Positions 1-64,000 of a DNA stretch of 64,000 bases are shown one piece after another. The stretch lies in contig JAPFFF010000017.1 in the NCBI GenBank assembly GCA_039105265.1, forward strand, positions 3,038,001-3,102,000, written 5' to 3'. Both the position numbers and the translations under genes were made by a program. Within the stretch, counting starts at the first letter, position 1; each line of letters opens with the position of its first letter. The notes under the pieces are model-generated. The model was not told where the DNA came from and ran no database searches. It was given only the letters and a program-made list of their open reading frames with translations. Source of the stretch: Tritrichomonas musculus. Taxonomy: Eukaryota > Parabasalia > Tritrichomonadida > Tritrichomonadidae.

Positions 1-191
1 TTAGTGATTTTGTATTCATTGCCGTCATTAGTGATGATTTTATATATCTTGTTCAAATAGTTTGTCGTTTGTGTTTTCATTTGCTCGATATTCTTTTGAT
101 AGAACAAATTGAACTCTTCAACTGATTTAAACACTTTTGATTCATTAATGTTTTCGTTTATTACTTTAAGTTCATTGATGTTATCATTCAT
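1..191 (-). CDS. Coiled-coil protein, N-terminal part (A), cut by window edge
   Basis: The start codon is at 189-191 on the minus strand and the gene runs off the window start. The visible N-terminus matches the 176-residue protein at 54538-55068 (element B), including the block with E-E-F-(N/D)-L-F and the later T-T-N-Y-L-N-K-I-Y-K-I-I. It is more distantly similar to 36487-36948 in C. The complete homologues end in a predicted coiled coil. Function is unknown. It lies downstream of the pVI-like gene in the same direction, as in B and C, which suggests a virion or assembly role. Too short for the usual length filters. Confidence 0.8.
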   Translation of the reverse strand, partial: MNDNINELKVINENINESKVFKSVEEFNLFYQKNIEQMKTQTTNYLNKIYKIITNDGNEYKIT

Positions 192-221
192 TTGTATTCA
201 ATTTAAAACGTTTCATTATAT

Positions 222-476
222 TTACCCAACTTTATCCAAAATTGATTTACCAACTTTACCAGCTGTATCAGCATAACTGAGACCTCTATCAACGAAATCA
301 ACAACTTGACCGACACCAGGAATGAGACCAGTAATTGGTTTGACTCTATCAATGATTTGCCTTCCAACGTTAACAACTTGAGGAAGCTTTTCAACGACTT
401 TCTTTGCTGTGTCTTTGACTGTTTTGGCAAACTTAGTAAAACCGTTCTTTATCTTCTTGAATATACCTATACCCAT
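222..476 (-). CDS. pVI-like amphipathic minor virion protein (A)
   Basis: An 84-residue protein starting MGIGIFKKIK. An N-terminal amphipathic lysine-rich helix is followed by a hydrophobic, glycine-containing stretch (I-P-G-V-G-Q-V) and a C-terminal S-I-L-D-K-V. Small proteins of this type in Polintons and adintoviruses are compared with adenovirus protein VI, which lies under the capsid and disrupts membranes. That role here is inferred from composition and context. The gene is divergent from the capsid gene with 54 bp between start codons. Close copies occur at 54254-54505 (B) and 36999-37250 (C). Confidence 0.75.
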   Translation of the reverse strand: MGIGIFKKIKNGFTKFAKTVKDTAKKVVEKLPQVVNVGRQIIDRVKPITGLIPGVGQVVDFVDRGLSYADTAGKVGKSILDKVG

Positions 477-530
477 ATTTTAAGAGTAAATAAAAGAGAT
501 AATATATTGATTCTTTTTATTAAATCATAA
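477..530. promoter_or_regulatory. Bidirectional promoter region, pVI-like / capsid (A)
   Basis: A 54-bp gap between divergent start codons. TCATA at 525-529 sits directly before the capsid ATG and fits the Trichomonas initiator consensus TCAYW. The equivalent gap in B (54201-54253) has the same TCATAA before its capsid start. Confidence 0.55.
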
Positions 531-2387
531 ATGTTATACAGAAACGATAGAGCTCACAATTATCAAATAGAGACAGGAAATGTATTGGATGCGTTCAAGG
601 AAATGCGCAACATGATTAACGTTAATGATGGTACTCGTTCATTTTCATTTAGGACAGTTGATTGTCATGACCAACCTGCTCCATTTCATCAAGGACAGTA
701 TTCACAAATCAGTTTAACACATCCTGACCACTTCATCAGTGATGTTGATAAAGGTTTCTTAACATTTCACATCAAATTGAATCTTCAATTAAGCACAGAC
801 ATTGCAAAGCTTAAAGCGATTGAAGACCCTGAAAATCTTTATAAATTATTTGTTGGTTTCAAATCATCAAATCAATTGTTTGACAGGTTAGAGATTCTTC
901 ATAATAATGTCAATGTCGGATATCAACAGAATGAAGCAATTCGTGAAGGTTTCTTGTATTCAGTTCTCAAACCTGAAACAGAAAAGAAAAGACGCCGATT
1001 TGTTCATTCATTATGGGAAAACGTTTGCAGCTATTCACAAACGCATGCAGGTGTTTACGTTAATCTTAATGATTTCAAAGATAACGGAAGAGCTGAGTGT
1101 GAATTTGATTTAAATATACCTTTTGATGATTTGCTCGCATTGCAAGCATTTGATTTATTCCCTAATGGTATCATTGGTGATTTAGCTATTCGTTTTCAAG
1201 TTAGTCCCGCTGGTCTTGTTTGGGCAGTATTAGACCCTTACACAGTTGCTGAAACAAAAGCATTCCTTGAAGATGATGACAAGATATCAATGAAACAACT
1301 TGACCAACTTCGTGAATTGAAAGCTAAAGGAAAACTAAAGAGACAGTTCACACAAATTGGAAATGAAGCATTGATTCCTGGAGTTCTTGATAAATCAATC
1401 AAATTCAAATACAATATCTGTGCTGAACACGGTATACCAGTTAATTCAGAACCAATTGAACTTGAATTTGAATTCACAGATGAAGAATATGAAAGATTTG
1501 GTATCAAACGAACTGATGACTTGAGAGAGATTGCAAGACACAATCCAGATAACACAACAACAGTTGAGTCATATCATACAATTGAAATCGTTGAAGAAAC
1601 ACCAACAATGAAGAAATATGAATCACAAAAGGCTGTATTGACATGCAATCAAATGACAATCACACTTTGCAAATCAAACATGCAAGGCTATGGTGTTTGT
1701 GAAGCAACAAGACAAGGAATTGAAGACATTCTTCGAGAAGGTATCACCATTCCATCACAAAAGGTTGACTATCATGCTTTCCCTATTGCTGCAGCTCAAA
1801 ACGGAATCAAATCAACTTTGAACATTCCATTAATTAATGTGACCACGATGTCTGTACTGTTTCCAAAACATCATAATGATTTGACTGTCTTTGAAAATCC
1901 AGTTTATCAAAACTGTTATTTGAATATTGGTGGCAAGAACTTTCCTGATGAAAACGTTGACACAATCGGTGCAAGATTCTTTGAGAATCAATTAACTGCT
2001 GGAGACCTTGATGCCATTACATTACAATGCACAAAAGAGTTTGAAGACAGTTTCACAATGCCAAAGAACGACACAGAAGGAACAAGATACAAGAATACAT
2101 TAAGAGATGCAACATCATTTGTTTTCAATGTTCAAACTGAAAGGTCGAGTGCTGGATATACATATGACGGTCTTGATGGGGGATTTGGTAATGTTCAAGT
2201 TCAAATCAATGGTCAACCAATTCATACAGGTAAGAATGATACATATTATAATGTTAATGAAGAAGGAACAGTTCACCCGCCCCCAGTTCAATTATGTTTA
2301 TGCCGCGACACCTATTTCCATTTATCACTTGACGGATTGGTTTACGTTGATGATGAAACGCCAAAAGGTTCACAAGCTAATGAATAA
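531..2387 (+). CDS. Major capsid protein, double-jelly-roll type (A)
   Basis: A 618-residue protein starting MLYRNDRAHN. It is the main shell protein by family and context. Length and the N-terminal block S-F-S-F-R-T-V-D-C-H-D-Q-P-A-P-F followed by a T-H-P-D-H-F-I-S-D-V-D-K-G-F-L region resemble Polinton capsid proteins, in which a first beta-sandwich opens with such a segment. The C-terminal half has Y-K-N-T-L-x-D-A-T-S-F-V-F-N and the end P-P-P-V-Q-L-C-L-C-R-D-T-Y-F. It is near-identical to 52332-54200 over most of its length, with a variable block around residues 290-385. It is followed after 58 bp by the integrase. It looks intact. The double-jelly-roll assignment rests on family resemblance, not a structure. 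Confidence 0.85.
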   Translation: MLYRNDRAHNYQIETGNVLDAFKEMRNMINVNDGTRSFSFRTVDCHDQPAPFHQGQYSQISLTHPDHFISDVDKGFLTFHIKLNLQLSTDIAKLKAIEDPENLYKLFVGFKSSNQLFDRLEILHNNVNVGYQQNEAIREGFLYSVLKPETEKKRRRFVHSLWENVCSYSQTHAGVYVNLNDFKDNGRAECEFDLNIPFDDLLALQAFDLFPNGIIGDLAIRFQVSPAGLVWAVLDPYTVAETKAFLEDDDKISMKQLDQLRELKAKGKLKRQFTQIGNEALIPGVLDKSIKFKYNICAEHGIPVNSEPIELEFEFTDEEYERFGIKRTDDLREIARHNPDNTTTVESYHTIEIVEETPTMKKYESQKAVLTCNQMTITLCKSNMQGYGVCEATRQGIEDILREGITIPSQKVDYHAFPIAAAQNGIKSTLNIPLINVTTMSVLFPKHHNDLTVFENPVYQNCYLNIGGKNFPDENVDTIGARFFENQLTAGDLDAITLQCTKEFEDSFTMPKNDTEGTRYKNTLRDATSFVFNVQTERSSAGYTYDGLDGGFGNVQVQINGQPIHTGKNDTYYNVNEEGTVHPPPVQLCLCRDTYFHLSLDGLVYVDDETPKGSQANE

Positions 2388-2426
2388 ATGAATTGATTTT
2401 CATTAAATAATCATCATTAATGAATG

Positions 2427-2437
2427 CTTTATTTTTG
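2427..2437 (+). promoter_or_regulatory. TTTATTTTTG upstream motif, integrase (A)
   Basis: CTTTATTTTTG ends 8 bp before the integrase ATG at 2446. The same motif precedes many starts in the window (for example 39991-40000, 42404-42413, 52221-52230), so it is a candidate core promoter or leader element of these transposons. Confidence 0.5.
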
Positions 2438-2445
2438 CGATTCAA

Positions 2446-3531
2446 ATGGAAGACTACAAAGAATCAATCAATTATCCTTTCAAATCAAAGTACAAGTACA
2501 TCAAAGACACAAACATCAAAACTGAGCCATACATACCTGACTTTCAATTGAAAACAGTAAAGAAACTATCAAAACCTGACTTTTCATTTGAACCATACGC
2601 GTACGAAATCGATATAATGTTTGCATTAAACAAAGCTTATTTAGTAATAATCAATGTAAACACCAAATACCTAATTGTTGAACCAATTAATTACAAGTCT
2701 GAGTTTTATGTAATCAAAGTAATTGATAAACTAGTCAATGAAAGGAATATCAGAATTGAAACAATTAAATGTGATGGTGAAAAGGCTTTCATATCAAATG
2801 CATTCAAAAGTTATTGCAACGGAGACGAGCGACACCAATCAAACAAACCGTCAAAGAAATTCAAAGCACCAAACAAAATAAAGTTAATCATTGATGATTC
2901 ACCTTTCACGAATGCACATAAATGTGTTGATGCAGTAATCAGAACATTACGAAATGCTTTCGGTCAATCACAGCAACGAATGACAAACAATGTATTGATG
3001 CAACAAATGGTTGAATGGTACAATAACACTCCTCATGCATCTCTTCGTTTATTGAATCCTTTATACACATCATTTGACGAAGAAACTGATGAATACCTTG
3101 ACAAACGGCAATCAAAATATATTTATCTAACGCCTCAACAGATGCAAGATGACCGCGACCTTGAATGGCAATACATCAGAGCGAAATCAATGCAATTGAA
3201 AGAGATTCAACAAAAACAAAGATTTAAAGGTCTTCTATCATACAAACCCAAAAATATAATACTTGTTCACACCGATTACGGAAAAACAGAAAAGAAACAT
3301 GAGAAAAGAAGAAGAGTATTCAATGAACTCGCTGAATTCATTTGCTATGAATCTGGAAACGTTAAATGTAAACTATTAAATCCTTTGCGTCAAACTAACA
3401 AAACACTGAAGAATAAAACAATAATAACTGTACCAATCATGTACACAAAATATGTTTGTTCGTCAATAGATGATTTGAATGATGATTATAAAATATTCTT
3501 TTTGGCTTATAAAACGCAAAATGAAAGCTAA
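2446..3531 (+). CDS. Retroviral-type integrase (A)
   Basis: A 361-residue integrase, the enzyme that joins element ends to target DNA. The RNase-H-like core shows an acidic residue in E-I-D-I-M-F (about residue 56), a second in K-C-D-G-E-K-A (about 110), and the third position in H-K-C-V-D-A-V-I-R-T-L-R-N (about 163). That third position is usually glutamate in integrases but is aspartate here, as in the B, C and D copies. The C-terminal part holds an SH3-like stretch (G-N-I-I-L-V-H) and a basic segment K-K-H-E-K-R-R-R. It overlaps the next gene by 11 bp, which implies tight coupling. Copies of 371, 420 and 367 residues occur in B, C and D. Confidence 0.9.
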   Translation: MEDYKESINYPFKSKYKYIKDTNIKTEPYIPDFQLKTVKKLSKPDFSFEPYAYEIDIMFALNKAYLVIINVNTKYLIVEPINYKSEFYVIKVIDKLVNERNIRIETIKCDGEKAFISNAFKSYCNGDERHQSNKPSKKFKAPNKIKLIIDDSPFTNAHKCVDAVIRTLRNAFGQSQQRMTNNVLMQQMVEWYNNTPHASLRLLNPLYTSFDEETDEYLDKRQSKYIYLTPQQMQDDRDLEWQYIRAKSMQLKEIQQKQRFKGLLSYKPKNIILVHTDYGKTEKKHEKRRRVFNELAEFICYESGNVKCKLLNPLRQTNKTLKNKTIITVPIMYTKYVCSSIDDLNDDYKIFFLAYKTQNES

Positions 3532-3871
3532 ACAACCAATCACAAAACGATACTATCACACACAATCAAAAGATTTTATTCTTCCTGATGATTTCGTTTA
3601 TAGTCGCAACAAGAAGTACATTGTCGTTCAATACTGTGGGGCTGTTGTCAATCAACATATTGTCGGTGATTTGATGGTTCATTCAGATATAGTTGAATTC
3701 ATGCCTTTCTGCGACCATTTCATAATGCTTGCTAACAGAAGACAAACGAAATACAGGAAATATGAGTGTCTGAATAACACAAAAAAAGAGTATCATTTAT
3801 GGTTTACAGATATGAAAGGAAACGTTATTGAACCTGAATCATTTATATTCAGTTGCTTATTAATTTATTGA
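3521..3871 (+). CDS. Small conserved beta-rich protein (A)
   Basis: 116 residues starting MKAKQPITKR. An upstream in-frame ATG at 3479 exists, but 3521 is chosen because the B copy starts at the same methionine. It always follows the integrase (B 50757-51107, C 34325-34657, D 61515-61844). The conserved core is Y-F/Y-H-T-Q, S-R-N-K-K-Y-I-V-V-Q-Y, G-D-L-M-V-H-S-D-I-V, F-I-M-L-A-N-R-R-Q-T-K-Y, and an end W-F-T-D-x-x-G-N-V-I-E-P-x-x-F-I-x-S-C-L-L-I-Y. The beta-strand-rich pattern with a D-x-x-G-N turn would fit a small jelly-roll or minor capsid piece, but this is speculation. Function unknown. Confidence 0.85.
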   Translation: MKAKQPITKRYYHTQSKDFILPDDFVYSRNKKYIVVQYCGAVVNQHIVGDLMVHSDIVEFMPFCDHFIMLANRRQTKYRKYECLNNTKKEYHLWFTDMKGNVIEPESFIFSCLLIY

Positions 3872-3878
3872 ATTCAAA

Positions 3879-4409
3879 ATGAATAACAATCATTCACCTC
3901 CAGTGTTTGAAGCTTTTTTTGGACCTTCATCATATAAACCACCTGAATACTATCCAAACACACCAAAATTCGTTAACATCACTGAAGGACCACCACCGAC
4001 ATGTGATTATTATATTCCTCGCAAATTCAGGAATATCAGAAGCCCGCCACCAACATTTAAACAACATCCTGCACTCGAAAGAAGAGTTCGAATAAGAGAG
4101 AAGCTATTTGAACAATTGCAAGATGACCCAATATATGAAGTGTATACCAAAGAAAAACAAAGACAAGCTGAAACAATAAAAGCTAAACAACGAACCAACA
4201 GAATCAAATCATCATTCATTCAACAACCAAACCCTCCTTCACCATCAATGATTTGGAATGATTCGAGATATTGGAATCAATTGAGAAACACCGATGAATC
4301 ACTTGATAAAACTGAAATCACTCCGTTTGATGCTGATTTGAGTCCAACACGTAGACTCAACACATCCAAACATCGAAGACCAAAACGCAAAATGAGTGAA
4401 CAAAAATAA
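3879..4409 (+). CDS. Proline-rich low-complexity protein (A)
   Basis: A 176-residue protein starting MNNNHSPPVF, rich in Pro, Lys, Arg and Asn, with no recognised domain. By position it corresponds to the 321-residue gene of B (49778-50743), the 493-residue gene of C (32752-34233) and the 468-residue gene of D (61848-63254). All are low in complexity and very different in sequence. Its start lies 7 bp after the preceding stop, so it is likely expressed with the integrase cluster. It could be a disordered virion or DNA-binding protein. Not recognised. Confidence 0.7.
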   Translation: MNNNHSPPVFEAFFGPSSYKPPEYYPNTPKFVNITEGPPPTCDYYIPRKFRNIRSPPPTFKQHPALERRVRIREKLFEQLQDDPIYEVYTKEKQRQAETIKAKQRTNRIKSSFIQQPNPPSPSMIWNDSRYWNQLRNTDESLDKTEITPFDADLSPTRRLNTSKHRRPKRKMSEQK

Positions 4410-4462
4410 AAGTAATCAACATGATTCAATGAATATCATTTCATTTATTTTTATTCTCTGAT

Positions 4463-7024
4463 TCATGCTTCTTCTTGAAATATATCAATATCGTATCTGT
4501 TTACATTACTTAATTGGTCTTTCTTCTGTGCATTTAGTTTTTCCTTATATTCGAGATATCCACATTGTTGACCATAGATTTTATCAATCAAGTTATTGAT
4601 TATTCGATTATATTCTTCTTTATTTTCTCTTATCTCTTCTGTAGGTATTTCAGCAGCCAATTGAGTCTTTTCAGCTAGTTTTTGGGGTCTCTGCTTGTCA
4701 TTCATACTGACATTTACTAAGTATGATAGTATCAATGATTCCATTGATTGAATGAAAGCAATTGGCATTCCTTCCCAAGCACTTCTATTAGGATTGAATT
4801 CACCGCTTTCAAAGTTGATGACCTTTGACAAATTATTGATGAATGTTGTCATTCGCTTACCAATCATTTGATTGTACTTTGATTTGTTGATTTTCTTCCA
4901 TGCTAACCATTGAATGTAGTTCATTGGCTGACCACCTTTTTCAATCTCTTTCTTGACATTGTTATCAAAGTAAATACAAAACATGACATTTGAAACTGAA
5001 AGGTATGAAATGATTCTTGTTAATGGTTTGAATTGTGGGAATAATTGCCAGAAGACTTTCCAAACCTTTGCGAAATAGCTTGACCAATATGATGAAGGGC
5101 TTAATCGTTTGCTGACTTTTGGCTTACCCAAACCGAGTTCATTGTGATAGAATTCTGTATATTTCTGGATGGTTTCATTTGGATTAATATTATATTCACC
5201 TTTCTCCCAGTCTACAGAATCCTTTGATTTATTGAATTGTTCATTGAGCCAAACATTGAACGGTTTAGCTTTCCTTTCTTCTGCTGATTTGACAACTGTC
5301 TTCCATACTTTCTTATAAGGAGAAGCAAATACAAGTTTATAGCCGTTTATGACTTGTGGCACTCCTTTCTTATCAACTAATACAATATCATCAATCTTAT
5401 CTCCATTCAGGTCTGTTATTGCTTCACCATTTGGGTCCATTCCATTTGTAGGAAGTAAACGATATTTTGGCTTTCCGTCTTGGTCGAGATGTGTATGACA
5501 GTATATTGTTGCTTGGTCTCTGGTTGAGGCGGCAGGAATGTATTTGATTCTATAATTACCATTAATGATTAAATCAAGGAAGTTTTGTTTATAGTATGTT
5601 GAACTCTTGGCGGGTGATTGAATGTTAAGGTTTGTGAAATCTCTATCGATGTTTTCAAGAACGGTTGGTGCATCTCTGTCCTCACGCTTACCTCTTACTG
5701 TTGCTGCTTTAGCATTTTTAATTAAAGCATTGATTTCATCATCGGTTATTTTTTGTGCAAATGGATTTCCAGGTTTAAATATTTTTTGATTGAATTCAAC
5801 TTTATCACCATCAATGAACTTACCATGCTTCTTTGGTTTATTTGCTTGTTGAGCGTATTCAGTGAATGTTTGATTGAGGTCATCACCATCTTCTCTATCG
5901 AAAACAAATGACTGCGAAAAATCGTCTGCGTCTGTCATGACTCTTTTAGATGCTGAAAAATTATTAACAACATCATCTGGTTTCACAAATGGGACTGGTT
6001 TAATTGATGGTGGTTTGATTGGTTGTATGACATCAGAGCCTTTGATAGGTTTTTTATTAATGATTGTGTCAAACACTCTGAAGAATGATGATAAGCCTGT
6101 AATTGATTTTCGTTCATTGGTTATATCAATGTTTCTCTTCATATTATCTCTAATAGTTTCAAGTGTTTGATGTAATGCATCAACGTTTTCCTTTGCTTGT
6201 TCATCAAGTTTGTTTTGTGGTTTCTTTGCTGCTTCATAACATCTTGGTAGTACATTGAGCCATGGTTGATTATAGCCTAATTGCTTGAGCAATTCAATGT
6301 CATCATCTACCAAATCATAAGGAGACAGCAACAAGGCTGATAGGTTATCTTCATCCTCTTCTTCTAGTTCTGGGAAGTTAAATGATATTGATGGTAGTGA
6401 ATCATCTTGCTCCAAAAAACTTGTATTCAGTAATTCATCAGAATCACTCGGAGTTATGCGTTTTCTTCTTGGTGTTCTTCGTTTATTACTGTCAGGTGTT
6501 GGTTCATGTATGCTTGTTCTCTTTCTTCTTCCTTTGGTGGTTTGTGGTGTTTGAATCTTTCGTGGCGGTTTGATGGGTGATGAACGAAAACCATCAGAAC
6601 TATAATTCAAATCATCGTTGACAACAATATTGAAGTAATTGATAATTGTATCAAGACTTTTTTTGTCTGTTGTGTACTCTCTTAAACTAAGGAATTGATT
6701 GCCTTTGCTTTTAATACCTGCATTGATTTTGTTCATCAATGAAACAAATCGACGAAACTTGACTTTCATTTCACGAATCTTTCCCACACTTCTTCCTGTA
6801 TATTCATTGTTTTGTATTTGATACAACAAATTAATTAAATCATTGGGGTGTTCTAGTTTGTATGTACTGAGAAATGTGTTCCTAAAATAATCTATCGGGT
6901 CCTCTAGTTCTTCATCATCATCATCAGGTTTAGATACCTCGCTGTCAAATATAGTTTCATCATCAATATTGCTCAAATCTAATTCAAAGCTATCAGATGA
7001 ATTATTTTTGTCTTGTTTTGACAT
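4463..7024 (-). CDS. Large conserved element protein, 853 residues (A)
   Basis: A large protein of unknown function starting MSKQDKNNSS. The N-terminal third is acidic (D/E runs), followed by a Ser/Arg/Lys-rich region with T-P-R-R-K-R. The conserved C-terminal half begins near the block N-Y-R-I-K-Y-I-P-A-A-S-T-R-D-Q-A, then D-L-N-G-D-K-I-D-D-I-V-L-V-D, which resembles a calcium-binding D-x-N-G-D-x-x-D-D loop, and later S-P-S-S-Y-W-S-S. Homologues: B 47201-49708, C 30690-32732, D 63251-63967. It is transcribed divergently from the fibre gene with only 22 bp between starts, which suggests co-regulation and a virion role. Not recognised beyond that. Confidence 0.85.
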   Translation of the reverse strand: MSKQDKNNSSDSFELDLSNIDDETIFDSEVSKPDDDDEELEDPIDYFRNTFLSTYKLEHPNDLINLLYQIQNNEYTGRSVGKIREMKVKFRRFVSLMNKINAGIKSKGNQFLSLREYTTDKKSLDTIINYFNIVVNDDLNYSSDGFRSSPIKPPRKIQTPQTTKGRRKRTSIHEPTPDSNKRRTPRRKRITPSDSDELLNTSFLEQDDSLPSISFNFPELEEEDEDNLSALLLSPYDLVDDDIELLKQLGYNQPWLNVLPRCYEAAKKPQNKLDEQAKENVDALHQTLETIRDNMKRNIDITNERKSITGLSSFFRVFDTIINKKPIKGSDVIQPIKPPSIKPVPFVKPDDVVNNFSASKRVMTDADDFSQSFVFDREDGDDLNQTFTEYAQQANKPKKHGKFIDGDKVEFNQKIFKPGNPFAQKITDDEINALIKNAKAATVRGKREDRDAPTVLENIDRDFTNLNIQSPAKSSTYYKQNFLDLIINGNYRIKYIPAASTRDQATIYCHTHLDQDGKPKYRLLPTNGMDPNGEAITDLNGDKIDDIVLVDKKGVPQVINGYKLVFASPYKKVWKTVVKSAEERKAKPFNVWLNEQFNKSKDSVDWEKGEYNINPNETIQKYTEFYHNELGLGKPKVSKRLSPSSYWSSYFAKVWKVFWQLFPQFKPLTRIISYLSVSNVMFCIYFDNNVKKEIEKGGQPMNYIQWLAWKKINKSKYNQMIGKRMTTFINNLSKVINFESGEFNPNRSAWEGMPIAFIQSMESLILSYLVNVSMNDKQRPQKLAEKTQLAAEIPTEEIRENKEEYNRIINNLIDKIYGQQCGYLEYKEKLNAQKKDQLSNVNRYDIDIFQEEA

Positions 7025-7046
7025 TGTTTAGTTTCTAATAAATTGA
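7025..7046. promoter_or_regulatory. Ultra-short bidirectional promoter, 853-residue gene / fibre (A)
   Basis: Only 22 bp separate the two divergent ATGs. Equivalent gaps are 18 bp in C (30672-30689) and 21 bp in B (47180-47200). Core promoter elements must overlap or lie inside the opposite coding sequence. Confidence 0.5.
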
Positions 7047-52324: not shown

Positions 52325-52331
52325 AGTTTAT

Positions 52332-54200: not shown

Positions 54201-54253
54201 TTATGATTTAATAAAAAGAATCAATATATTATCTCTTTTATTTACTCTTTAAA

Positions 54254-54505: not shown

Positions 54506-54537
54506 TGATATCTATAAACGTTTTATCATAAACTCAA

Positions 54538-55260: not shown

Positions 55261-55274
55261 TTAATTGTTATTAA

Positions 55275-55916: not shown

Positions 55917-55922
55917 TACCTT
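55917..55922. repeat. Target site duplication of B, right
   Basis: TACCTT immediately after the CT terminus of B. Second copy of the 6-bp duplication. Confidence 0.95.
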
Positions 55923-56106: not shown

Positions 56107-56193
56107 TTATGATATAATTAAAAAATCAATTTATTTGAAATTTGAAAAATGTTAAATCAAAAAAAAATAATTCAGTTTTTTTATTTCATTGAA

Positions 56194-56697
56194 ATGACAG
56201 AATTAATAGAGATATTGAAACATGTTGATGCAATCCGTCATTTGTTAACAATATTGATTGCTAAATCAGATGACCATGAAGCTTTCAGGAACCTTGTGAA
56301 TAATGTTTCATTTGACAATGACAATAATGATTCATCATCAGATGAAGAAAATCTGCCCCATTTCTCTAAACAAAATAGTTTATTGAATGATATAACACCA
56401 AAAAGTGATAAACCAAAGCGCTCCTTATTCAATTCATCAAAGTTCTTAAACGCTCATGACCGTGAATTAGTTATGCAGTTCCTTGATGAAGAACGAATGA
56501 ATGAAATTAATAAGTTGCCAGCACATAAACAAGCATCATACACAAAACTATTAATCAAAAAGCATTTAAACATAGATATATCAACGTACATGGTTAACAA
56601 GATTCTCACATTGAAAAGGCAACAGACTCATGACAATGATGATGAAGACAATGATAACAATAACAATAACAATCAAAGAAGACCACAATTGATTTAA
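56194..56697 (+). CDS. Conserved protein divergent from polymerase (A), 167 residues
   Basis: The ATG at 56194 (MTELIEILKH) is preferred over the in-frame ATG at 56149 because it matches B. Ser/Asp-rich linker, helical domain S-K-F-L-N-A-H-D-R-E-L-V-M-Q-F-L-D-E-E-R and H-K-Q-A-S-Y-T-K-L-L-I-K-K-H-L-N-I, Asp/Asn-rich C-terminus. Longer linker than in B. Role near replication suggested only by position. Confidence 0.8.
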   Translation: MTELIEILKHVDAIRHLLTILIAKSDDHEAFRNLVNNVSFDNDNNDSSSDEENLPHFSKQNSLLNDITPKSDKPKRSLFNSSKFLNAHDRELVMQFLDEERMNEINKLPAHKQASYTKLLIKKHLNIDISTYMVNKILTLKRQQTHDNDDEDNDNNNNNNQRRPQLI

Positions 56698-56736
56698 ATT
56701 CATTGAATCATTTGAAGTTTTTATTTTTGGTTTAAA

Positions 56737-56982
56737 ATGAATAGTGCAATTAATGGCTTGAGTTGTGATACATCATCTTTACACGTTCAGTTTCGAATAG
56801 TTAAAGACAAGATATTCAATGAATGTATGAATTCTGAAGATGACGCATTAAACGGAAAGTTTGATAAGATGATTCACATTTTGACAATATATAAACAACT
56901 ATTTAATGATATTGAATCGATTAAAATACAATTGAGAGCTATTGATGAACGTATCAAATCAGCTGAACAGATGACTTTGTAA
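56737..56982 (+). CDS. Conserved 81-residue helical protein (A)
   Basis: Near-identical to B 17962-18207. TTTATTTTTG at 56720-56729 lies 7 bp upstream of the ATG. Unknown function. Confidence 0.8.
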   Translation: MNSAINGLSCDTSSLHVQFRIVKDKIFNECMNSEDDALNGKFDKMIHILTIYKQLFNDIESIKIQLRAIDERIKSAEQMTL

Positions 56983-57036
56983 ATGATTCATTGAATGGCT
57001 CATCATTAATGTTGTTTTATTTTTATTCAAACATTC

Positions 57037-57612
57037 ATGGCATTATCAAAAGCTCGTATATTAAGTAGCGAGAACGATGCATCAGTTAAGCAGGAACAAT
57101 CAACCAGTATTAATATAAACATCAAACCAAAGCAACCACAACCAGTTGAATATCCATCAGTTCAACCATTACCACAATCATCTCAAGCCACAAATTTTAC
57201 TATACCTCAGATGAGTGGAGTATATCAATCACAGCATCCAACAAACAACGTTTCCCTAGAAAGAGGTATCAGTGATATTGGAGCTGATATAACAGAACTT
57301 GAAACCAAAAACAAATTCCTTGAGATATTATTATCCATCTATGAAACCAATCCAATAAAAGTCAATGATTTATTGATTTGTCATTCAAATACATTAATGG
57401 AACTCATCAAATTACTAACACAAGCTGATAAAGTTGAATTGATTGTCAATGATGATTGTGCGTGTAATGGTTGCGTTTCTCGTTCCAAATATCTTTTGAT
57501 TGATAGGATTTTGGTGTACAAAAATAATGAATCAAATGACTTGAAATACAAATATAATAGCATTTATACCGAACTCATTAGACACAACATTTCATTAAAA
57601 ACATGTATTTAA
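57037..57612 (+). CDS. Conserved 191-residue protein (A)
   Basis: Starts MALSKARILS. Almost identical to B 17334-17909, with the same Pro/Gln linker and C-terminal N-K-F-L-E-I-L-L-S-I-Y-E-T-N-P domain and C-x-G-C pair. Preceded by TTTTATTTTTA. Unknown function, likely packaging- or capsid-linked. Confidence 0.85.
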   Translation: MALSKARILSSENDASVKQEQSTSININIKPKQPQPVEYPSVQPLPQSSQATNFTIPQMSGVYQSQHPTNNVSLERGISDIGADITELETKNKFLEILLSIYETNPIKVNDLLICHSNTLMELIKLLTQADKVELIVNDDCACNGCVSRSKYLLIDRILVYKNNESNDLKYKYNSIYTELIRHNISLKTCI

Positions 57613-57622
57613 AAACTAATAA

Positions 57623-57754
57623 ATGATATATGAAATATTAGTGGTTTCATTATTAACAGGTTTATTTTTAGTGAAGCTTGTTGAAGTATCATTAATGATG
57701 CCTGACAAAGAACCAGAACTCAGTGAAGAGATAAGAACAAAAATGTATTCATGA
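57623..57754 (+). CDS. Small single-pass membrane protein, 43 residues (A)
   Basis: Identical in layout to B 17192-17323: hydrophobic residues 2-26, then P-E-L-S-E-E-I-R-T-K-M-Y. 10 bp after the 191-residue gene and 24 bp before the ATPase. Confidence 0.75.
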   Translation: MIYEILVVSLLTGLFLVKLVEVSLMMPDKEPELSEEIRTKMYS

Positions 57755-57778
57755 AGAGCTTTAACGAAAACTAAAGAA

Positions 57779-58693
57779 ATGAAAGGTTTCATGAAACCCA
57801 CTCAGTTTAATTACAAAGAGATTTTATTCTCTAATAGCTCTGATTATGATGATGACCAAATGAGTTTTGCATTTGAATATGAATCATTCAAGCCAACAGT
57901 TAATGAAAAGACATTTAATATTGATGATGAGATGAATAAAGCTTATCAACGCAATGAATCAAAAATAAAAAACGAATCAATCAGACCAATCGCAAACGGT
58001 ATTTATTCATATTACAATTCATTGAACATACTCGTTGGTCAGCAAGGTAAAGGAAAGAGTCATATAATGCTACGAGATGTTATTCAAATGTCTCGAATGA
58101 AGAACGCTGGCTTTCATTTAATTGTTTATGTATCACGAAACGGAACAATTAACGATGCTACATTCGAAAGCCAACGCGAATTGATACAGCTACCAATAAA
58201 AACTGTTGCTGACAGCAATGCTGAAGAATATCTTAAACAACTTGATTTATATAAAGAATTGTATAACAAATATTCATCAACACCAAAAATAGTAATCGAT
58301 GAAAAGAAGTTAAACGATATGTTTGAGTTTCTTCATATCAATAAACTAGGTCAACCAAATAAACCGCTAAATACTATCATTCTTTGTGAGGACTTTTTGA
58401 AATCGAAACTAATTAAATCATCCTATTTTATCAATACCATTAGTCAGCTTCGACACAAGAATCTAATCATATTCGTTAACATTCAGTTCTTCAAAGCTTT
58501 AACAACAGAATGGAAAAATAATGCAACATCATTCTTCATCTTTAGTGGTTATTCACGACAGAAACTTGGCTACATATATCAACAAGTTCCATTCCCAATA
58601 GAGTTCGAAGAGTTATGGAATCGATACAGAACAATGAAAGCACATCAATTCGTTTTAGTCAATGTTCGAACTAATAACCTTTCATTCATCTAA
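57779..58693 (+). CDS. A32/FtsK-HerA-like packaging ATPase (A)
   Basis: 304 residues. Walker A V-G-Q-Q-G-K-G-K-S (about 86), Walker B N-T-I-I-L-C-E-D (about 200), L-R-H-K-N sensor-like segment. No hairpin insert; it is the reference state for the disrupted B copy. Convergent with the 152-residue gene, 12-bp overlap. Confidence 0.9.
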   Translation: MKGFMKPTQFNYKEILFSNSSDYDDDQMSFAFEYESFKPTVNEKTFNIDDEMNKAYQRNESKIKNESIRPIANGIYSYYNSLNILVGQQGKGKSHIMLRDVIQMSRMKNAGFHLIVYVSRNGTINDATFESQRELIQLPIKTVADSNAEEYLKQLDLYKELYNKYSSTPKIVIDEKKLNDMFEFLHINKLGQPNKPLNTIILCEDFLKSKLIKSSYFINTISQLRHKNLIIFVNIQFFKALTTEWKNNATSFFIFSGYSRQKLGYIYQQVPFPIEFEELWNRYRTMKAHQFVLVNVRTNNLSFI

Positions 58694-59140
58694 TACAATT
58701 TGTTGTTGAACACCAACAAACAGTTGAGGTGTATTGATATTATATTTTTGTCTCATCTGTTCAATGAGTTCCTTTGTTTTCTTATCTGTTGCCTTTCTGA
58801 TACTGTAATTATAATACTTATATTCTTTAAATGATTGTTCTTCACTTGAACCTTCAACGAAGAACTCAATTGACGTTGTTGATATCCTTCTTCTAACATT
58901 TGATGTAAGTGTTATATATTCGAGCCCGAGGTCGACTATCTTGTCGTGATAGAATCGTTTGAATTCATTCTCTTTGTTCTTCAATGATATGTACAACACT
59001 TTAGCTTTATATGCAGCCTTTCCACAAGGTATTGGATATCTATCACACAGAATTGAGAAATCACATTGTTTGAACTTCTCTGATTCATCCAACATATCAA
59101 TAAGTGAATTGATGTAATCATAAACCTTTGGTGTTGTCAT
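58682..59140 (-). CDS. Conserved 152-residue protein (A)
   Basis: Near-identical to B 15768-16226 (C-D-R-Y-P-I-P-C-G-K-A-A-Y-K-A-K-V, T-S-N-V-R-R-R-I-S). Absent from C. Unknown function. Confidence 0.84.
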   Translation of the reverse strand: MTTPKVYDYINSLIDMLDESEKFKQCDFSILCDRYPIPCGKAAYKAKVLYISLKNKENEFKRFYHDKIVDLGLEYITLTSNVRRRISTTSIEFFVEGSSEEQSFKEYKYYNYSIRKATDKKTKELIEQMRQKYNINTPQLFVGVQQQIVLDE

Positions 59141-59170
59141 GTCTTTATCATGAAATTAAAAAATAAAAAC

Positions 59171-59248
59171 GTCATTGAAGACATCAACAGTCTCAAAAAT
59201 AAAGTTCATCAACTTGAGAATGAATTAAATGAGTTGTCCAATAAATGA
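59171..59248 (+). pseudogene. 3' remnant of short coiled-coil gene in terminal region of A
   Basis: Matches the last about 25 codons of 55275-55502 (E-D-I-N-S-L-K-N-K-V-H-Q-L-E-N-E-L) with its stop at 59246-59248. As in B, the terminal repeat has captured the gene end. Downstream (59280-59385) the sequence matches the B terminal repeat, including the GC-rich GGCTTTAGCC block, then diverges. Confidence 0.7.
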
Positions 59249-59395
59249 ACATCAATTGATGGTAATCATTAAATGAGTTCATATTATTTTTATTCATTAG
59301 TCGTGTTGACGGTGGGCTTTAGCCTGACGGAAACCGACTCATATATACTACTAAAACAAGTTCAAAGATGTAAATTCAAAGATGAAGATTCAAAA

Positions 59396-59432
59396 GTGGC
59401 GACCGTCAATCTCAATTTTTATCTGACCGTCC
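59396..59432 (+). repeat. Direct repeat flanking 119-residue gene, copy 1
   Basis: GTGGCGACCGTCAATCT followed, after a short spacer, by TTATCTGACCGTCC. Recurs at 59868-59909. Confidence 0.8.
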
Positions 59433-59461
59433 AAAAATAAAACATTAATAAAGCAATTCAT

Positions 59462-59821
59462 TTATTTATTCGTTGCGTTTCCCTTACGAATTGGTATTTT
59501 ACGAAATCTTTTATTCGGATGATTAAAGAAGTCATTGATAGAAGCTAACATTACACGTTCGGGTTCATTTCTTCTATAAAATCGAACGAATTCAATAATC
59601 ATCATGTCTTTAGGATATGTGTATATCTCACAATCATATTCATTAAAGAATTCATCAAATTGTTCTTTGGTGGCTTTATAATTGCAACGCTTCAAGGCAA
59701 ATTCCTTGTCATTATTGATTTTCGTCAAGAATTCTTTAATTGACTTATCCCACATATTTAAGCGTTTCTTCGGTGTGTAAAATACACGAACCCCATCATC
59801 AACATAATACATTACTTTCAT
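59462..59821 (-). CDS. 119-residue protein of unknown function near end of A
   Basis: Starts MKVMYYVDDG. Mixed alpha/beta, basic at the C-terminus (R-K-I-P-I-R-K-G-N). Aromatic-rich middle Y-P-K-D-M-M-I-I-E-F-V-R-F-Y-R-R. No homologue elsewhere in the window and no recognised family. It lies within the terminal region of A between two direct repeats of about 40 bp, so it looks like an added cassette. Confidence 0.65.
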   Translation of the reverse strand: MKVMYYVDDGVRVFYTPKKRLNMWDKSIKEFLTKINNDKEFALKRCNYKATKEQFDEFFNEYDCEIYTYPKDMMIIEFVRFYRRNEPERVMLASINDFFNHPNKRFRKIPIRKGNATNK

Positions 59822-59867
59822 AAACGATAAAAAATTAAATTAAAAAATCAAAGATATTAAATTTAAT

Positions 59868-59909
59868 GTGGCGACCGTCAATCTAGAACATCAATTTATC
59901 TGACCGTCC
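59868..59909 (+). repeat. Direct repeat flanking 119-residue gene, copy 2
   Basis: Second copy of GTGGCGACCGTCAATCT...TTATCTGACCGTCC, 472 bp after the first and 21 bp before the proposed terminus of A. Confidence 0.8.
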
Positions 59910-59930
59910 ATTTACACAATAATACTCTCT

Positions 59931-59936
59931 AAGGTT
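59931..59936. repeat. Probable target site duplication of A, right copy
   Basis: AAGGTT follows a CT dinucleotide and opens the in-frame capsid sequence of D. Its first A fits the third base of the alanine codon seen at this place in the other capsid genes (A-R-F-F-E). The partner copy would be outside the window, so this is an inference. Confidence 0.55.
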
Positions 59937-60348
59937 CTTTGAAAATCAACTTACTGCAGGAGACCTTGATGCGATTACTCTTCAATGCACAAAGGAGTTC
60001 GAAGACAGTATGACAATGCCTAAGAATGATGCTAATGGTGTTCGCTACAATAATACTCTTAGTGATGCCAGTAGTTTTGTCTTCAATATTCAAGCTGAAA
60101 GATCTTCTGCAGGTTATTGCTTCGACGGAATTGACGGAGGTTTTGGCAACGTACAGATTCAAGTACAAGGACAACCCATTTATTCTGGTGCAAATGACAC
60201 TTACTATAATGTAATCGAACCTTCAGGGAACGTGGTCCATCCACCCCCTGTAAACCTATGGTTAACAAGAGATTCTTACTTCTTAATGAATCTCGATGGA
60301 CTTGTTTATGTTGATGATCAAAGTCCTGAAGGTAGTCAAGTAGAGTAA
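59932..60348 (+). pseudogene. Major capsid protein, C-terminal part (D)
   Basis: About 138 codons in frame from R-F-F-E-N-Q-L-T-A-G-D-L-D-A to a stop at 60346. Homologous to the last fifth of the A, B and C capsid proteins, ending P-P-P-V-N-L-W-L-T-R-D-S-Y-F. The 5' four fifths are missing at the proposed insertion site of A and are expected left of the window. Confidence 0.88.
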
Positions 60349-60401
60349 GTAATCTTCTTTCTTTTTTTGTTTCCGTCAACCTAATTTAACTATTGCTTTC
60401 A

Positions 60402-60406
60402 TCATA
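60402..60406 (+). promoter_or_regulatory. TCATA initiator-like motif, integrase (D)
   Basis: TCATA directly before the ATG at 60408, fitting TCAYW. No TTTATTTTTG upstream in this element. Confidence 0.45.
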
Positions 60407-60407
60407 A

Positions 60408-61511
60408 ATGCTTGCTTACCCATTTAGTAGTAAGTACAAGTTTTTTGAATTCAAGAACGTTCCTAGGGAGCCTTATGTACCAGACTATAAACTAAAAGCT
60501 TGTAAACAATATATGAAGCCAAATTTCAGTAACGAACCTGGTTGTTGGGAAGCTGATCTAATGTTTGTGAAGAACACTATCTATCTTGTTTTGATAAACG
60601 TTAATACTAGATTCTTAATAGTTGAGCCAATAGAGAGTAAAGAAACAAGAGTATTATCAATAAAGATAACAGATATTATAGTTAATTATGATGTTGATAT
60701 CTTTACTATTAAATGTGATGGTGAAAAAGGATTGCAAGCAGTACAAAATGATATAATCGCACTTCGTACCAACGATGATGGAATTGTATTTGTTCCAGCA
60801 ATTCACAATATTGTTCGTGAAAGTAGAATGAGGGGTAAAGAAAAAATATTAAATGAAATAATTAATAAACATAACACCAATGTACTAAAAACAATATTGT
60901 CAGAATACAATGATAAGATTGATGTAAATACTATTAAATCATGGTCAGTATACAGAATCAAATTTGTAGTAAACTCTTCTCCATATGCACTAGCCCATAA
61001 AACAGTTGATTCAGTTATAAGAACTTTACGTAATGCTTTTGGTACAAAAATAGCAAACAATAATTATATGCAACAGATGGTCAATTATTACAATAATACT
61101 CCGCATAATTCACTACGAGTAAGAAACTATAATTATGAAAGTGATAGTAAATATATTTATTATACTCCTGCTCAAATGCAAAACGATATTGACCTTGAAT
61201 GGAAATATATAAGAATGATGAGAAGCAAATTACAAAGTATACACAAAAAACAACAACATAAAGGCCTATTAACATACAAGAAAGGAAATATAATTCTTGT
61301 TCATGTTGATTATGGTAAGACTAAAAAGAAATTTGATAAACGACGAAGAGTGTTTAATGAGATAGCTGAATTCTTAGCGTACTCTAATGGTAATGTTATA
61401 TGTAAACTTCAAAATGGCAATCTGATACAAGTACCTATTGCGTACACAAAGAAAATTGTAAATAGCTATGATGAACTAAATAAAGATTATAAACTGTACT
61501 TTGGTATGTAA
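60408..61511 (+). CDS. Retroviral-type integrase (D)
   Basis: 367 residues. Core: W-E-A-D-L-M-F, K-C-D-G-E-K-G, H-K-T-V-D-S-V-I-R-T-L-R-N-A-F-G, again with aspartate at the third position. C-terminal basic K-K-K-F-D-K-R-R-R-V-F. More diverged from A/B than C is in places. Intact, with the 109-residue gene 3 bp downstream. Confidence 0.9.
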   Translation: MLAYPFSSKYKFFEFKNVPREPYVPDYKLKACKQYMKPNFSNEPGCWEADLMFVKNTIYLVLINVNTRFLIVEPIESKETRVLSIKITDIIVNYDVDIFTIKCDGEKGLQAVQNDIIALRTNDDGIVFVPAIHNIVRESRMRGKEKILNEIINKHNTNVLKTILSEYNDKIDVNTIKSWSVYRIKFVVNSSPYALAHKTVDSVIRTLRNAFGTKIANNNYMQQMVNYYNNTPHNSLRVRNYNYESDSKYIYYTPAQMQNDIDLEWKYIRMMRSKLQSIHKKQQHKGLLTYKKGNIILVHVDYGKTKKKFDKRRRVFNEIAEFLAYSNGNVICKLQNGNLIQVPIAYTKKIVNSYDELNKDYKLYFGM

Positions 61512-61514
61512 TAA

Positions 61515-61844
61515 ATGACTAAACTATACTTCCATACGCAAGATAAAGAATTTCAGCTTCCTCTAGAATTTGTGAGTAGTAGGAACAAAAGATATATTGT
61601 CGTTCAGTATGTAGGTGCAATAGTGAAAGATACGCTTGTTGGCGATTTGATGGTGCACAGTGATATCGTTCAGCAATATGGTTACTGTGATCAATTTATA
61701 ATGCTAGCCAATAGAAGACAAACCAAATATAGAAAGTATTTGTTTCTTGGACATGAACGAAACTATAAAATCTGGTTCACTGACCTTTACGGAAATGTTA
61801 TTGAACCTTCTGCATTCATACTTAGTTGTCTTCTTATTTATTAA
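61515..61844 (+). CDS. Small conserved beta-rich protein (D)
   Basis: 109 residues. S-R-N-K-R-Y-I-V-V-Q-Y, G-D-L-M-V-H-S-D-I-V, F-I-M-L-A-N-R-R-Q-T-K-Y, W-F-T-D-L-Y-G-N and S-C-L-L-I-Y as in the other elements. Strict conservation over four elements shows it is core. Function unknown. Confidence 0.86.
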   Translation: MTKLYFHTQDKEFQLPLEFVSSRNKRYIVVQYVGAIVKDTLVGDLMVHSDIVQQYGYCDQFIMLANRRQTKYRKYLFLGHERNYKIWFTDLYGNVIEPSAFILSCLLIY

Positions 61845-61847
61845 TAA

Positions 61848-63254
61848 ATGACTGTAAGACCTGGAAAAGAAATTATATGCGATGATGTTAACTATTCAAC
61901 TCTTGCTGTAAGCACCAAAGGATATGTGATATACGCGTTTCCAATAAAATATGAATTGCCAAAAATGTGTTTGAGCAAAGGACAAGCTGTAATAGATAGC
62001 TATCCGTGCTATTATATCAAACTTGAAAAAGACTATTTTCCAACTATAATACTTGTCATACGTTTTATTTGTGGAAGAGAGGTTGTTGTTCTAATGAAGG
62101 ATAGAGATATAGATTATAGTAAAGCAAGAATATTATATGCTTTTGATCTTGAAGCCTTCAAGCCAAAGTTCGCAGAAATAAAAGTTGTAAGCAAATTAAC
62201 AGAATCAAGTGAGTTCATATATCCTTTCAAACTTGATCCTGATTGTGACGATGATATTAAAGAAAAGTATGTAAGCCAACTTTCACAAAAAGTTGATCAA
62301 ATTCACCCAGAAATCAAACCAGAAAATTATTCTCAACGACACTGGTATAATTTTTGCTGTTACCAGGATAATAGAGCCCGTACACAAGAACCTCCTACCT
62401 TTCCTTGTTTATCTCCTCAAGAAAGAGCAGAACTTAAAGAAAAACGAAGATTAGAGAAAGAAGAACAAGAAAAACAAATGAAAAAGGCTGAACAAAGGAA
62501 AAAGAAAAAAGAAGCTGAATATCATAAAAAGAGACAAGAAGAAATAAGAAGAATCAATGAAGCACCGAAGCTTGATATTCAAACAGGAAAAATAATATAT
62601 AACAAACCTTTTGATCTTGTTGGAGAAGGTAGGTACAAAGCTATAATATATAAGAGACAGAATGCTAATGTAAATACAAATTTACATGACTTTCCAACAG
62701 AAAAAACAGAACTTGATATTGATCCTAATGAATCATTAATATTTGACAATCAGAGGCCAGCATTACAGTATCAAGAAGTACCAAAACCTCCGAAACCACC
62801 AGTACCGAAGAAGACTGTGCCGCTCCGACCGAGCCTACGCGAGGCAGGAACTAAGAGAAAAGAAATTATACCAAAATCTACAAAGCTTGTCAGAGATAGA
62901 ATAAGACGAGCGCATAATGAAAAGCGCTATGATTATCCCAGTGATAGTGATAGTGATAGTGAGCCTATGGAAATTCAATATGGATATCTTGTTATGAATG
63001 ATGAACCACCTCCACCAAGCTCAGGCCGAGCCTTCCTGCCTCGTTCGACACTCGGAGAACGCGCGAAGGCCCAACAACAACCACCTCCACAAATCGCTGC
63101 GAGCTCTCGCGAAGCACCAAAACAACAACAACAAATTTTCCCACCGAGGCCACAAGCCATGAGAATTGTAAAAGATGAACCTAAAAGAAGACAAACCAAA
63201 AATAAAAAAGTTCTATCTCCATCAGAAATTGACGATTCTATTTTAAATATTTAA
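61848..63254 (+). CDS. Variable protein with charged coiled coil and Pro-rich tail (D), 468 residues
   Basis: Starts MTVRPGKEII. N-terminal about 150 residues globular with hydrophobic strands; then a K/E-rich helix (about residues 195-240, E-E-Q-E-K-Q-M-K-K-A-E-Q-R-K-K-K-K); then a Pro/Gln-rich tail. The tail carries three GC-rich blocks (about 62818-62849, 63021-63077, 63100-63118) unlike the AT-rich surroundings. Positional counterpart of the A, B and C variable genes. Overlaps the next convergent gene by 4 bp. Not recognised. Confidence 0.75.
   Translation: MTVRPGKEIICDDVNYSTLAVSTKGYVIYAFPIKYELPKMCLSKGQAVIDSYPCYYIKLEKDYFPTIILVIRFICGREVVVLMKDRDIDYSKARILYAFDLEAFKPKFAEIKVVSKLTESSEFIYPFKLDPDCDDDIKEKYVSQLSQKVDQIHPEIKPENYSQRHWYNFCCYQDNRARTQEPPTFPCLSPQERAELKEKRRLEKEEQEKQMKKAEQRKKKKEAEYHKKRQEEIRRINEAPKLDIQTGKIIYNKPFDLVGEGRYKAIIYKRQNANVNTNLHDFPTEKTELDIDPNESLIFDNQRPALQYQEVPKPPKPPVPKKTVPLRPSLREAGTKRKEIIPKSTKLVRDRIRRAHNEKRYDYPSDSDSDSEPMEIQYGYLVMNDEPPPPSSGRAFLPRSTLGERAKAQQQPPPQIAASSREAPKQQQQIFPPRPQAMRIVKDEPKRRQTKNKKVLSPSEIDDSILNI
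62818..63118. repeat. Three GC-rich palindromic blocks in D gene
   Basis: 62818-62849 contains GCTC-CGACC-GAGC and GCCT-ACGCG-AGGC. 63021-63077 contains several C/G-rich inverted segments. 63100-63118 contains GCGAG-CT-CTCGC. All are in frame and stand out from the AT-rich background, as in the B inserts. Confidence 0.65.
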
Positions 63255-63967
63255 GCTTCATCCTCATCATCTTCATCACTTGTAAGTGCATCTACGGTTT
63301 TGATATCATAGCGATAAACATCATTCTTACGGTCTATTTGTTGTTGCTTGTATTGTTCTTTATAAGTTGCATATCTACTACCACTACCATAAAGTTTATC
63401 CACAATAGCTGTCAAACGTTTTGTATAGTAAGCTTTGTTCTCTTTAAGTTCTTTTGGTGTTGCAGACAGAACTTGTTCTTGTATAAGTTCTTGTATAGCT
63501 TCTTGTCCAGGCTTCTCTCCTAACATGAGTATTTCTGCGAAAACTAATAGGAACAATCTTTCTATAAGTCTAATGAAAGCAGCATGAGTTTTATTACTCT
63601 TTTCAAGATTTTCTACTTTAATTTCACCCGTCTTGATATCTATGATAGGATCTATGTAATCTGTTCCTATTTTTACAACTTTTGGTCCTGCTCTTTCGTT
63701 ATAAGCTGCTTTGTGATCTCGTTTGTAGTTTGCCCAAGCAGGGTATGTTAGAAGTTTACCTCCAAAATCTTTTGTTTCTATTTCTCGTTTGACACCAAGA
63801 TCAACAACAATAATGTACATAGCATTAGAAACTCCTAAATAGTTAAGAAGTCTTATTACAGATTTGTATTCTGGATACGCTACTTCCCAAAAGAACTTCC
63901 AAAGATAAGAGAAAATAGATGCCCAATACGAACTAGGTGACTTATCATTGATTATATAAGAAAGTAT
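63251..63967 (-). CDS. Large conserved element protein, C-terminal part (D)
   Basis: An open frame of 239 codons with S-P-S-S-Y-W-A-S-I-F, V-S-N-A-M-Y-I-I, F-P-like A-W-A-N-Y-K-R-D-H and an acidic C-terminus, matching the ends of A 4463-7024 and C 30690-32732. Similarity stops near 63940 and an in-frame stop lies at 63968-63970. In another frame 63965-63995 shows a possible match to an earlier part (L-A-N-H-L-D), so an internal deletion is likely. Cut by the window end; probably broken. Confidence 0.75.
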   Translation of the reverse strand: MLSYIINDKSPSSYWASIFSYLWKFFWEVAYPEYKSVIRLLNYLGVSNAMYIIVVDLGVKREIETKDFGGKLLTYPAWANYKRDHKAAYNERAGPKVVKIGTDYIDPIIDIKTGEIKVENLEKSNKTHAAFIRLIERLFLLVFAEILMLGEKPGQEAIQELIQEQVLSATPKELKENKAYYTKRLTAIVDKLYGSGSRYATYKEQYKQQQIDRKNDVYRYDIKTVDALTSDEDDEDEA

Positions 63968-64000
63968 TCATGTCAAGGTGGTTTGCAAGGAGTGAATACT

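Follow-up and report, generated by a model that had tools for sequence, protein, structure and literature searches.

Nested Mavericks, as well as Mavericks fused end to end, are known in Trichomonas vaginalis from the part of the published account consulted here (PMC7845603). The locus analysed in this work is a window of 64,000 nucleotides (C17:3038001-3102000) from the Tritrichomonas musculus assembly (193.4 Mb, 746 contigs); window coordinates are extended to negative values and past 64000 for features outside it. Very likely, complete Maverick/Polinton elements inserted themselves precisely into this region of a mouse-gut protist genome at least five times in succession, leaving C inside B, B inside A, A inside D and D inside E. 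Every layer has AG...CT ends and is flanked by a perfect target-site duplication (TSD) of 6 base pairs (bp), and the net lengths (C 18.9, B 21.7, A 20.7, D 20.8 and E about 20.6 kb) imply that each layer is one ordinary element. Ends, duplications, continuity of the interrupted genes and order of the layers are all shown. From the inside outwards, the elements and their terminal inverted repeats (TIRs) are:

22412..41350: element C, complete and innermost; 18,939 bp; AG...CT ends; TIR of 325 bp with 0 mismatches; TSD GACGTT
22406..22411: left TSD of C, GACGTT, junction read directly
41351..41356: right TSD of C, GACGTT, junction read directly
22412..22736, + strand: left TIR of C, with its mate at 41026-41350
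15280..55916: element B; 40,637 bp including C, about 21.7 kb of its own; AG...CT ends; TIR of 378 bp with 0 mismatches; TSD TACCTT
15274..15279: left TSD of B, TACCTT, junction read directly
55917..55922: right TSD of B, TACCTT, junction read directly
15280..15657, + strand: left TIR of B, with its mate at 55539-55916
-1401..59930 (C17:3036599-3097930; 1..59930 in the window): element A; about 20.7 kb of its own; TIR of 757 bp with 0 mismatches; TSD AAGGTT
-1407..-1402 and 59931..59936: left and right TSDs of A, AAGGTT
-9727..72443 (C17:3028273-3110443; 59931..64000 in the window): element D; about 20.8 kb of its own; TIR of 973 bp with 2 mismatches; TSD TAGGTT on both sides
-18692..106292 (C17:3019308-3144292): element E, enclosing the whole window; about 20.6 kb of its own; TIR of 1148 bp with 0 mismatches; TSD AGCATT on both sides

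The right end of A reads CTCTCT at 59930 and is followed by AAGGTT. Its left end lies beyond the window, where the terminal 531 bases of A recur inverted at -871..-1401 with 100% identity; the letters across this junction (-1401) are ...GCAAGGTT directly followed by AGAGAGTATT, that is, AAGGTT and then AGAGAG. Self-comparison of the extended region revealed two further inverted end pairs, those of D and E, and a screen of inverted pairs for AG...CT ends together with equal 6-mers returned C, B, A, D, E and one more element, F, described below. The same screen gave an extra pair, 15664..95171, which is an internal coincidence, B and F being similar at these places, and was not counted as an element. 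The chance of one given 6-mer standing at two unrelated ends is 1/4096, or about 0.6% once the target motif discussed below is allowed for; between different sites the 6-mers agree in 4 of 1326 site pairs, and in the stack five layers match. For queries across the left junctions of B and C, a single place gave a full match among the 40 candidates scored out of 335 and 295, respectively. Another contig, C352, repeats the right junctions at 55916, 59930, 72443 and 73461; in 25.2 kb it shows 6 mismatches and a single gap of 13 bp.

We compared each flank of an insertion separately with an uninterrupted relative of the broken gene, and the flank pairs of C, B, A, D and E all correspond to adjoining residues of such relatives. 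The pieces identified in B, A and D are:

18807..22411, + strand: predicted DNA polymerase B of element B, N-terminal piece, cut by C; residues 1-1207 of the 1543-residue copy of F
41351..42362, + strand: the same gene, C-terminal piece; residues 1207-1543 of the F copy
10901..15279, - strand: predicted DNA polymerase B of A, C-terminal piece, cut by B; from residue 63 of the E copy
55917..56106, - strand: the same gene, N-terminal piece; residues 1-63
-3014..-1404: capsid-like gene of D, 5' piece, cut by A; open frame, residues 1-486 of the 622-residue copy of F
59931..60345, + strand: the same gene, 3' piece; from residue 486 of 622

The gene of E that was cut by D is a repeat-bearing one, 'p1000', which is conserved, has relatives in all six elements A-F and is of unknown function. 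This test of frame adds little beyond the TSDs, since a precise insertion with a 6-bp TSD into an open gene must rejoin in just this way. Open frames taken as genes cover about 87% of element F, so that each layer hitting a gene is to be expected. The polymerase gene was considered as a possible hot spot, having received four of the seven insertions at the home locus (C, B, E and F2, described below, but not A, D or F). Elsewhere, however, it was hit in only 5 of 26 cases (the flanks with a blastx match among 50 sampled elements), which is close to its share of element length, and the hot spot was therefore rejected.

The stack continues outside E, which interrupts the polymerase gene of a sixth element, G. 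The adjoining pieces at -19274..-18693 and 106293..107252 correspond to residues 1334-1526 and 1027-1335, respectively, of the 1529-residue copy of H. Counted outwards, the layers are thus C, B, A, D, E and the fragment of G. Two more elements were found on its right side:

73461..95669: element F, a sister element, inside the right part of E; TSD TGCCTG
From 107255, with the other end at C29:64357: element F2; TSD CACCAG on both sides

Both are 22,209 bp long with identical ends, differing at 2 of 2,984 bases in the part compared. F2 cuts the polymerase gene of G a second time, at residue 1027; homology to this gene stops at C29:64985 (residue 817), and the 15 kb past that point gave no match to proteins of the stack region at an E-value of 1e-5. 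The start of contig C29 is identical to 98901..107500 and is followed by a copy of F (C29:8355-30563) and then by a second copy with CACCAG on both sides. The former has mismatched TSDs, CACCAG on the left, as in G, and TGCCTG on the right, as in E. Such a hybrid suggests either unequal crossing-over between F and F2, which would leave an additional unit of 33.8 kb, or a misassembly; copies this alike would hardly be told apart with reads of 8.9 kb.

An earlier note on this DNA had proposed a four-deep nest, C in B in A in D, and the ends, TSDs and gene continuity bear this out. The AG...CT ends and perfect TSDs given there for B (TACCTT) and C (GACGTT) could be read directly at the junctions; the right end of C, 41350, holds, and its left end is at 22412 rather than 22413. 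The cut genes do rejoin in frame, at residue 1207 for C in B and residue 63 for B in A, and where A entered D the CT end at 59930 is followed by AAGGTT and the capsid-like gene resumes at residue 486 of 622, again as described. Even the left flank predicted for A (AAGGTT and AG, preceded by the 5' part of the D capsid gene) was found, at -1401. D, on the other hand, had been taken for the oldest layer and is not: it is complete and lies in E, which lies in a fragment of G. As for the idea that every layer broke a core gene, C, B and E each did cut a polymerase gene (of B, A and G, respectively) and A cut the capsid-like gene of D; D cut p1000 of E, a conserved gene.

The note had further expected the stack to yield relative ages. 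The order can indeed be read from it: E came first, D then entered E, A entered D, B entered A and C entered B. Ages cannot, and dating of the layers by their TIRs was given up for want of differences, of which there are 2 in 3,581 positions (E 0/1148, D 2 adjacent/973, A 0/757, B 0/378, C 0/325). All layers are either recent or homogenised. Homogenisation is a live possibility because A is a mosaic of E and A2, the latter being an element 25 kb to the left of A. Where alignable, A is 92-100% (mostly 97-100%) identical to E in 500-base windows, with no shared terminal sequence, whereas both ends of A, some 1-2 kb stretches and the N-terminal half of the polymerase are 100% like A2. This comparison covered A at -1401..15279 and 55923..59930, and A2 over the right 23.7 kb of its 42.3-kb span, which may itself harbour a nested element; in the capsid-like gene A2 is 73-82% like A. 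Gene decay was rejected as a clock as well. The lesions besides the insertions are a frameshift near the end of the p1000 gene of B (44424-47203), a stop in the D polymerase (67036-71448) and a frameshift in the capsid-like gene of E (-16369..-14517), with none in the tested genes of A; these are too few for a trend, and C and F, having served as references, are open by choice.

How far can the assembly be trusted at such a locus? Near-identical Mavericks from different loci might have been joined, the true stack being shallower, and several facts weigh on this side and against successive insertion. The stack was read from the assembly, which, according to the part of its description consulted, was made with canu from PacBio HiFi reads with Nanopore scaffolding and gap filling (PMC11978803); the mean HiFi read of 8.9 kb is shorter than an element of 19-22 kb. 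For annotation, 298 contigs were removed as duplicates, according to the same part of the description (PMC11978803). C17, C29 and C352 overlap on the right side of E, where the F copy on C29 has CACCAG on its left and TGCCTG on its right. To these may be added that C352 may not be independent of C17 and that 5 of 50 pairs of Maverick ends sampled elsewhere lack a matching TSD. The right side of E, with F, F2 and the overlapping contigs, is accordingly uncertain, the layers inside D being unaffected. Nevertheless, we consider a misassembled stack improbable. Had loci been joined wrongly, some layer should have lost its matching TSDs and its continuous gene, and all five have kept both. Moreover, among the 40 matches scored, the first 151 bases of the B ends have a full-length match above 95% nowhere except on C352, a copy of the home locus (some matches reach 97%, over bases 27-151 only), and A and its nearest end-twin, A2, diverge inside, the difference reaching 27% in 500-base windows where A2 was compared.

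It could also be that neighbouring copies recombined, were duplicated as segments or underwent gene conversion, and that part of the layering arose in this way. The mosaic structure of A, with its E-like core and A2-like ends and 1-2 kb stretches, speaks for such exchanges, and unequal crossing-over would suit the hybrid F copy as well as the distance of 33,794 bp between F and F2. As the origin even of part of the layers, however, this is very improbable, for recombination makes neither layer-specific matching TSDs nor precise gene interruptions at those very sites. The nesting order stands whatever the extent of homogenisation.

The remaining genes considered here are:

23352..28343, + strand: predicted DNA polymerase B of C, unbroken, 1664 residues; assigned through PF03175-bearing relatives
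531..2384, + strand: capsid-like gene of A, unbroken, 618 residues; assigned through predicted structure and Foldseek
52335..54200, - strand: capsid-like gene of B, unbroken, 622 residues; assigned by homology
37003..39162, + strand: capsid-like gene of C, unbroken, 720 residues; assigned by homology
2407..3528, + strand: integrase of A; PF00665 at an E-value of 0.0011; 89% identical to the F integrase
51100..52269, - strand: integrase of B; PF00665 at an E-value of 1.2e-6 and 29.2 bits, below the curated cut-off of 32.6
60408..61508, + strand: integrase homologue of D; 45% identical to the F integrase (tblastn)
34664..35923, - strand: integrase homologue of C; 43% identical to the F integrase (tblastn)

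The large gene interrupted in B, A and G encodes a family B DNA polymerase, judging by its relatives. PF03175 is carried by 12 of 93 relatives of the C polymerase, at 39-44% identity, and three of four relatives from Streblomastix strix are named DNA-directed DNA polymerase, the fourth being uncharacterized. Scored directly, the protein matches no polymerase family of Pfam, and its profile matched none of the solved structures. A stretch resembling HNH/endonuclease VII lies in the middle of the C polymerase, at residues 1040-1155 or so. The gene cut in D and its homologues appear capsid-like from structural modelling, the A homologue being a candidate for the double-jelly-roll major capsid protein of Mavericks. 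For the A model (mean predicted local distance difference test score 66.5, predicted template-modelling score 0.49), 48 of the 49 Foldseek matches in the PDB with E-values up to 0.001 are viral capsid or coat-protein entries (best 2.2e-7), and the best E-value in the viral library is 1.5e-8; template-modelling scores of these matches do not exceed about 0.3, and root-mean-square deviations are mostly near 30 Å. Profile comparison with solved structures gave a G-protein subunit as its best match, at an E-value of 0.91, and scans of PHROGs and NCBIfam named neither the polymerase nor the capsid. No Pfam family of a packaging ATPase or maturation protease was found in the 36 open reading frames of the window, in a search of low sensitivity that missed the polymerase likewise. 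Accessory genes vary, with HNH and DUF3839 genes in B (42420-44316) and a KilA-N gene in A (10035-10820).

To place this stack in its genomic context, we searched the assembly with the ends of A, B, C, D and E, scoring at most 40 candidates per search (for the C family, 40 of 83 matches, those starting at the first base; for E, all but the weakest three of 29, which leaves 26). Pairing of plus and minus matches by position gave 69 pairs, among them the two extra copies of F on C29. Spans above 30 kb make up 19 of the 69 pairs, with none among the 18 of the C family. Four of these long spans belong to the home locus and 13 others were checked at both ends; 12 of the latter, 36-104 kb long (98, 104, 95 and 56 kb among them), have matching 6-bp TSDs, and a 156-kb pair does not. 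Altogether we checked 50 of the 69 pairs, hand-picked to include long spans, and found AG...CT ends with a perfect TSD in 45. Perfect TSDs bound the spans C11:5158341-5256442, C1:7057411-7161833 and C64:597193-692225 (98, 104 and 95 kb), which are probably deep stacks too. In a random model, with equal elements inserted uniformly into a growing genome (200 runs per Maverick fraction), the deepest stack averaged 4.7, 4.9, 5.4 and 6.5 layers at 38, 39, 48 and 62% Maverick DNA, and a depth of at least 6 was reached in 6, 10.5, 40 and 98.5% of runs, respectively. Total repeats amount to 42.67% of the T. musculus assembly in the part of its description consulted (PMC11978803). For fractions of this order, a stack of five or six layers would be at or somewhat above the expected maximum, and such a depth is not exceptional in a Maverick-rich genome.

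In addition, Mavericks are clustered. After exclusion of the two C29 copies and the pair without TSD, 57 of 66 pairs do not lie inside another listed pair, and the 41 un-nested pairs on contigs longer than 3 Mb form 23 neighbour pairs less than 100 kb apart, compared with 4.9 on average and never more than 19 when the pairs were placed at random 2000 times. Examples of such islands are C1:6.97-7.31 Mb, C2:4.45-5.23 Mb, C17:2.68-3.15 Mb and C11:4.86-5.42 Mb. Clustering in islands makes deep stacking easier. Maverick-like left flanks were seen in 27 of the 50 sampled pairs. A new copy would often land in an old one because elements lie in islands, and usually in a gene because elements consist mostly of genes; we infer that no special preference for Maverick genes is required.

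Insertion sites do have a preference of their own. A TSD of 6 bp is common to A, B, C, D, E, F and F2, and together with the 45 TSDs from elsewhere these seven give a set of 52. A symmetric target motif, NA(C/G)(C/G)TN, is centred on the TSD: A stands at position 2 in 39 of 52, C/G at position 3 in 49 and at position 4 likewise in 49, and T at position 5 in 36, with weaker skews at positions 1 and 7 and none farther out reaching p 0.05. The symmetry is one of preference, as a perfect palindrome occurs in just 1 of the 52. The cores ACGT, ACCT and AGGT account for 22 of 52 TSDs against 0.66% of flank positions, and both centre bases are C/G in 46 of 52 against a background of 10.6%. By family, the centre is C/G in 9 of 10 sites for A, 12 of 12 for B with F and F2, 13 of 13 for C, 10 of 13 for D and 2 of 4 for E, whose own TSD at the home locus, AGCATT, departs from the motif. 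Thus the motif is clear in four terminal-repeat families; the fifth, E, has a fitting centre at 2 of 4 sites. The preference for NA(C/G)(C/G)TN is shown statistically, the motif having been noticed and counted on the same 52 sites. Whether it might draw insertions into Maverick DNA was considered and rejected, core density being 7.0 per kb where flanks look Maverick-like (27) and 6.1 per kb where they do not (23), with no sign of such a preference. Our literature search, of limited extent, recognised no earlier report of this motif, and we do not claim that it is unpublished.

The family to which the integrases belong suggests how these sites might be used. The retrovirus-like integrase of each element would open the target with a stagger of 6 bp and join on the AG/CT ends, giving rise to the 6-bp duplication. 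We regard it as an even call whether the integrases recognise the motif and the elements build islands in which stacking goes along with recombination, with A a recombinant of an E-like core and A2-like ends. If true, the islands would serve as layered archives for a virus-like lineage in which parts go on being swapped. An order derived from intact TSDs needs no molecular clock, and TIR divergence and gene decay can be checked against it. The 52 TSDs also make the target motif testable across parabasalids and bear on the site choice of polinton-type integrases.

Among the closest described systems are the T. vaginalis Mavericks, which share with ours a parabasalid host, very high copy number, an integrase, KilA-N, a polymerase B and nesting; stack depth, TSD order and a target motif are not given in the part of that account consulted (PMC7845603). 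The host genus differs, as does the capsid-like protein: the family given for the T. vaginalis Maverick capsid in the part of the source consulted is DUF4106 (PMC10120064), and this family is not among the 14 listed for our alignment of 31 capsid-like sequences, the T. musculus protein having no match to it. Vertebrate Mavericks, as far as the part of the source consulted goes, resemble the present elements in their 6-bp TSDs and in their ends (PMC8097293), which are (AG)3/(CT)3 in A (AGAGAG) and (AGT)2/(ACT)2 in B, C, D, E and F (AGTAGT), with TIRs of 325-1148 bp in our set; unlike ours, they reside in animal hosts (PMC8097293). Mavirus-like EMALEs of Cafeteria with Ngaro insertions offer another case of a virus-like element interrupted by a mobile one; there, in the part of the work consulted, the guest is a Ngaro retrotransposon, TSDs are mostly 3-5 bp and the authors saw no sequence-specific integration (PMC8547959). 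Finally, Ginger1 and Ginger2, with their Gypsy-like integrases, are alike in having a related type of integrase and a symmetric target preference. The preferences themselves differ, according to the part of the source consulted: Ginger1 targets CCGG (or CCGT) with a 4-bp TSD and Ginger2 targets RTATAY (PMC2836005), whereas the T. musculus Mavericks combine a 6-bp TSD with NA(C/G)(C/G)TN.

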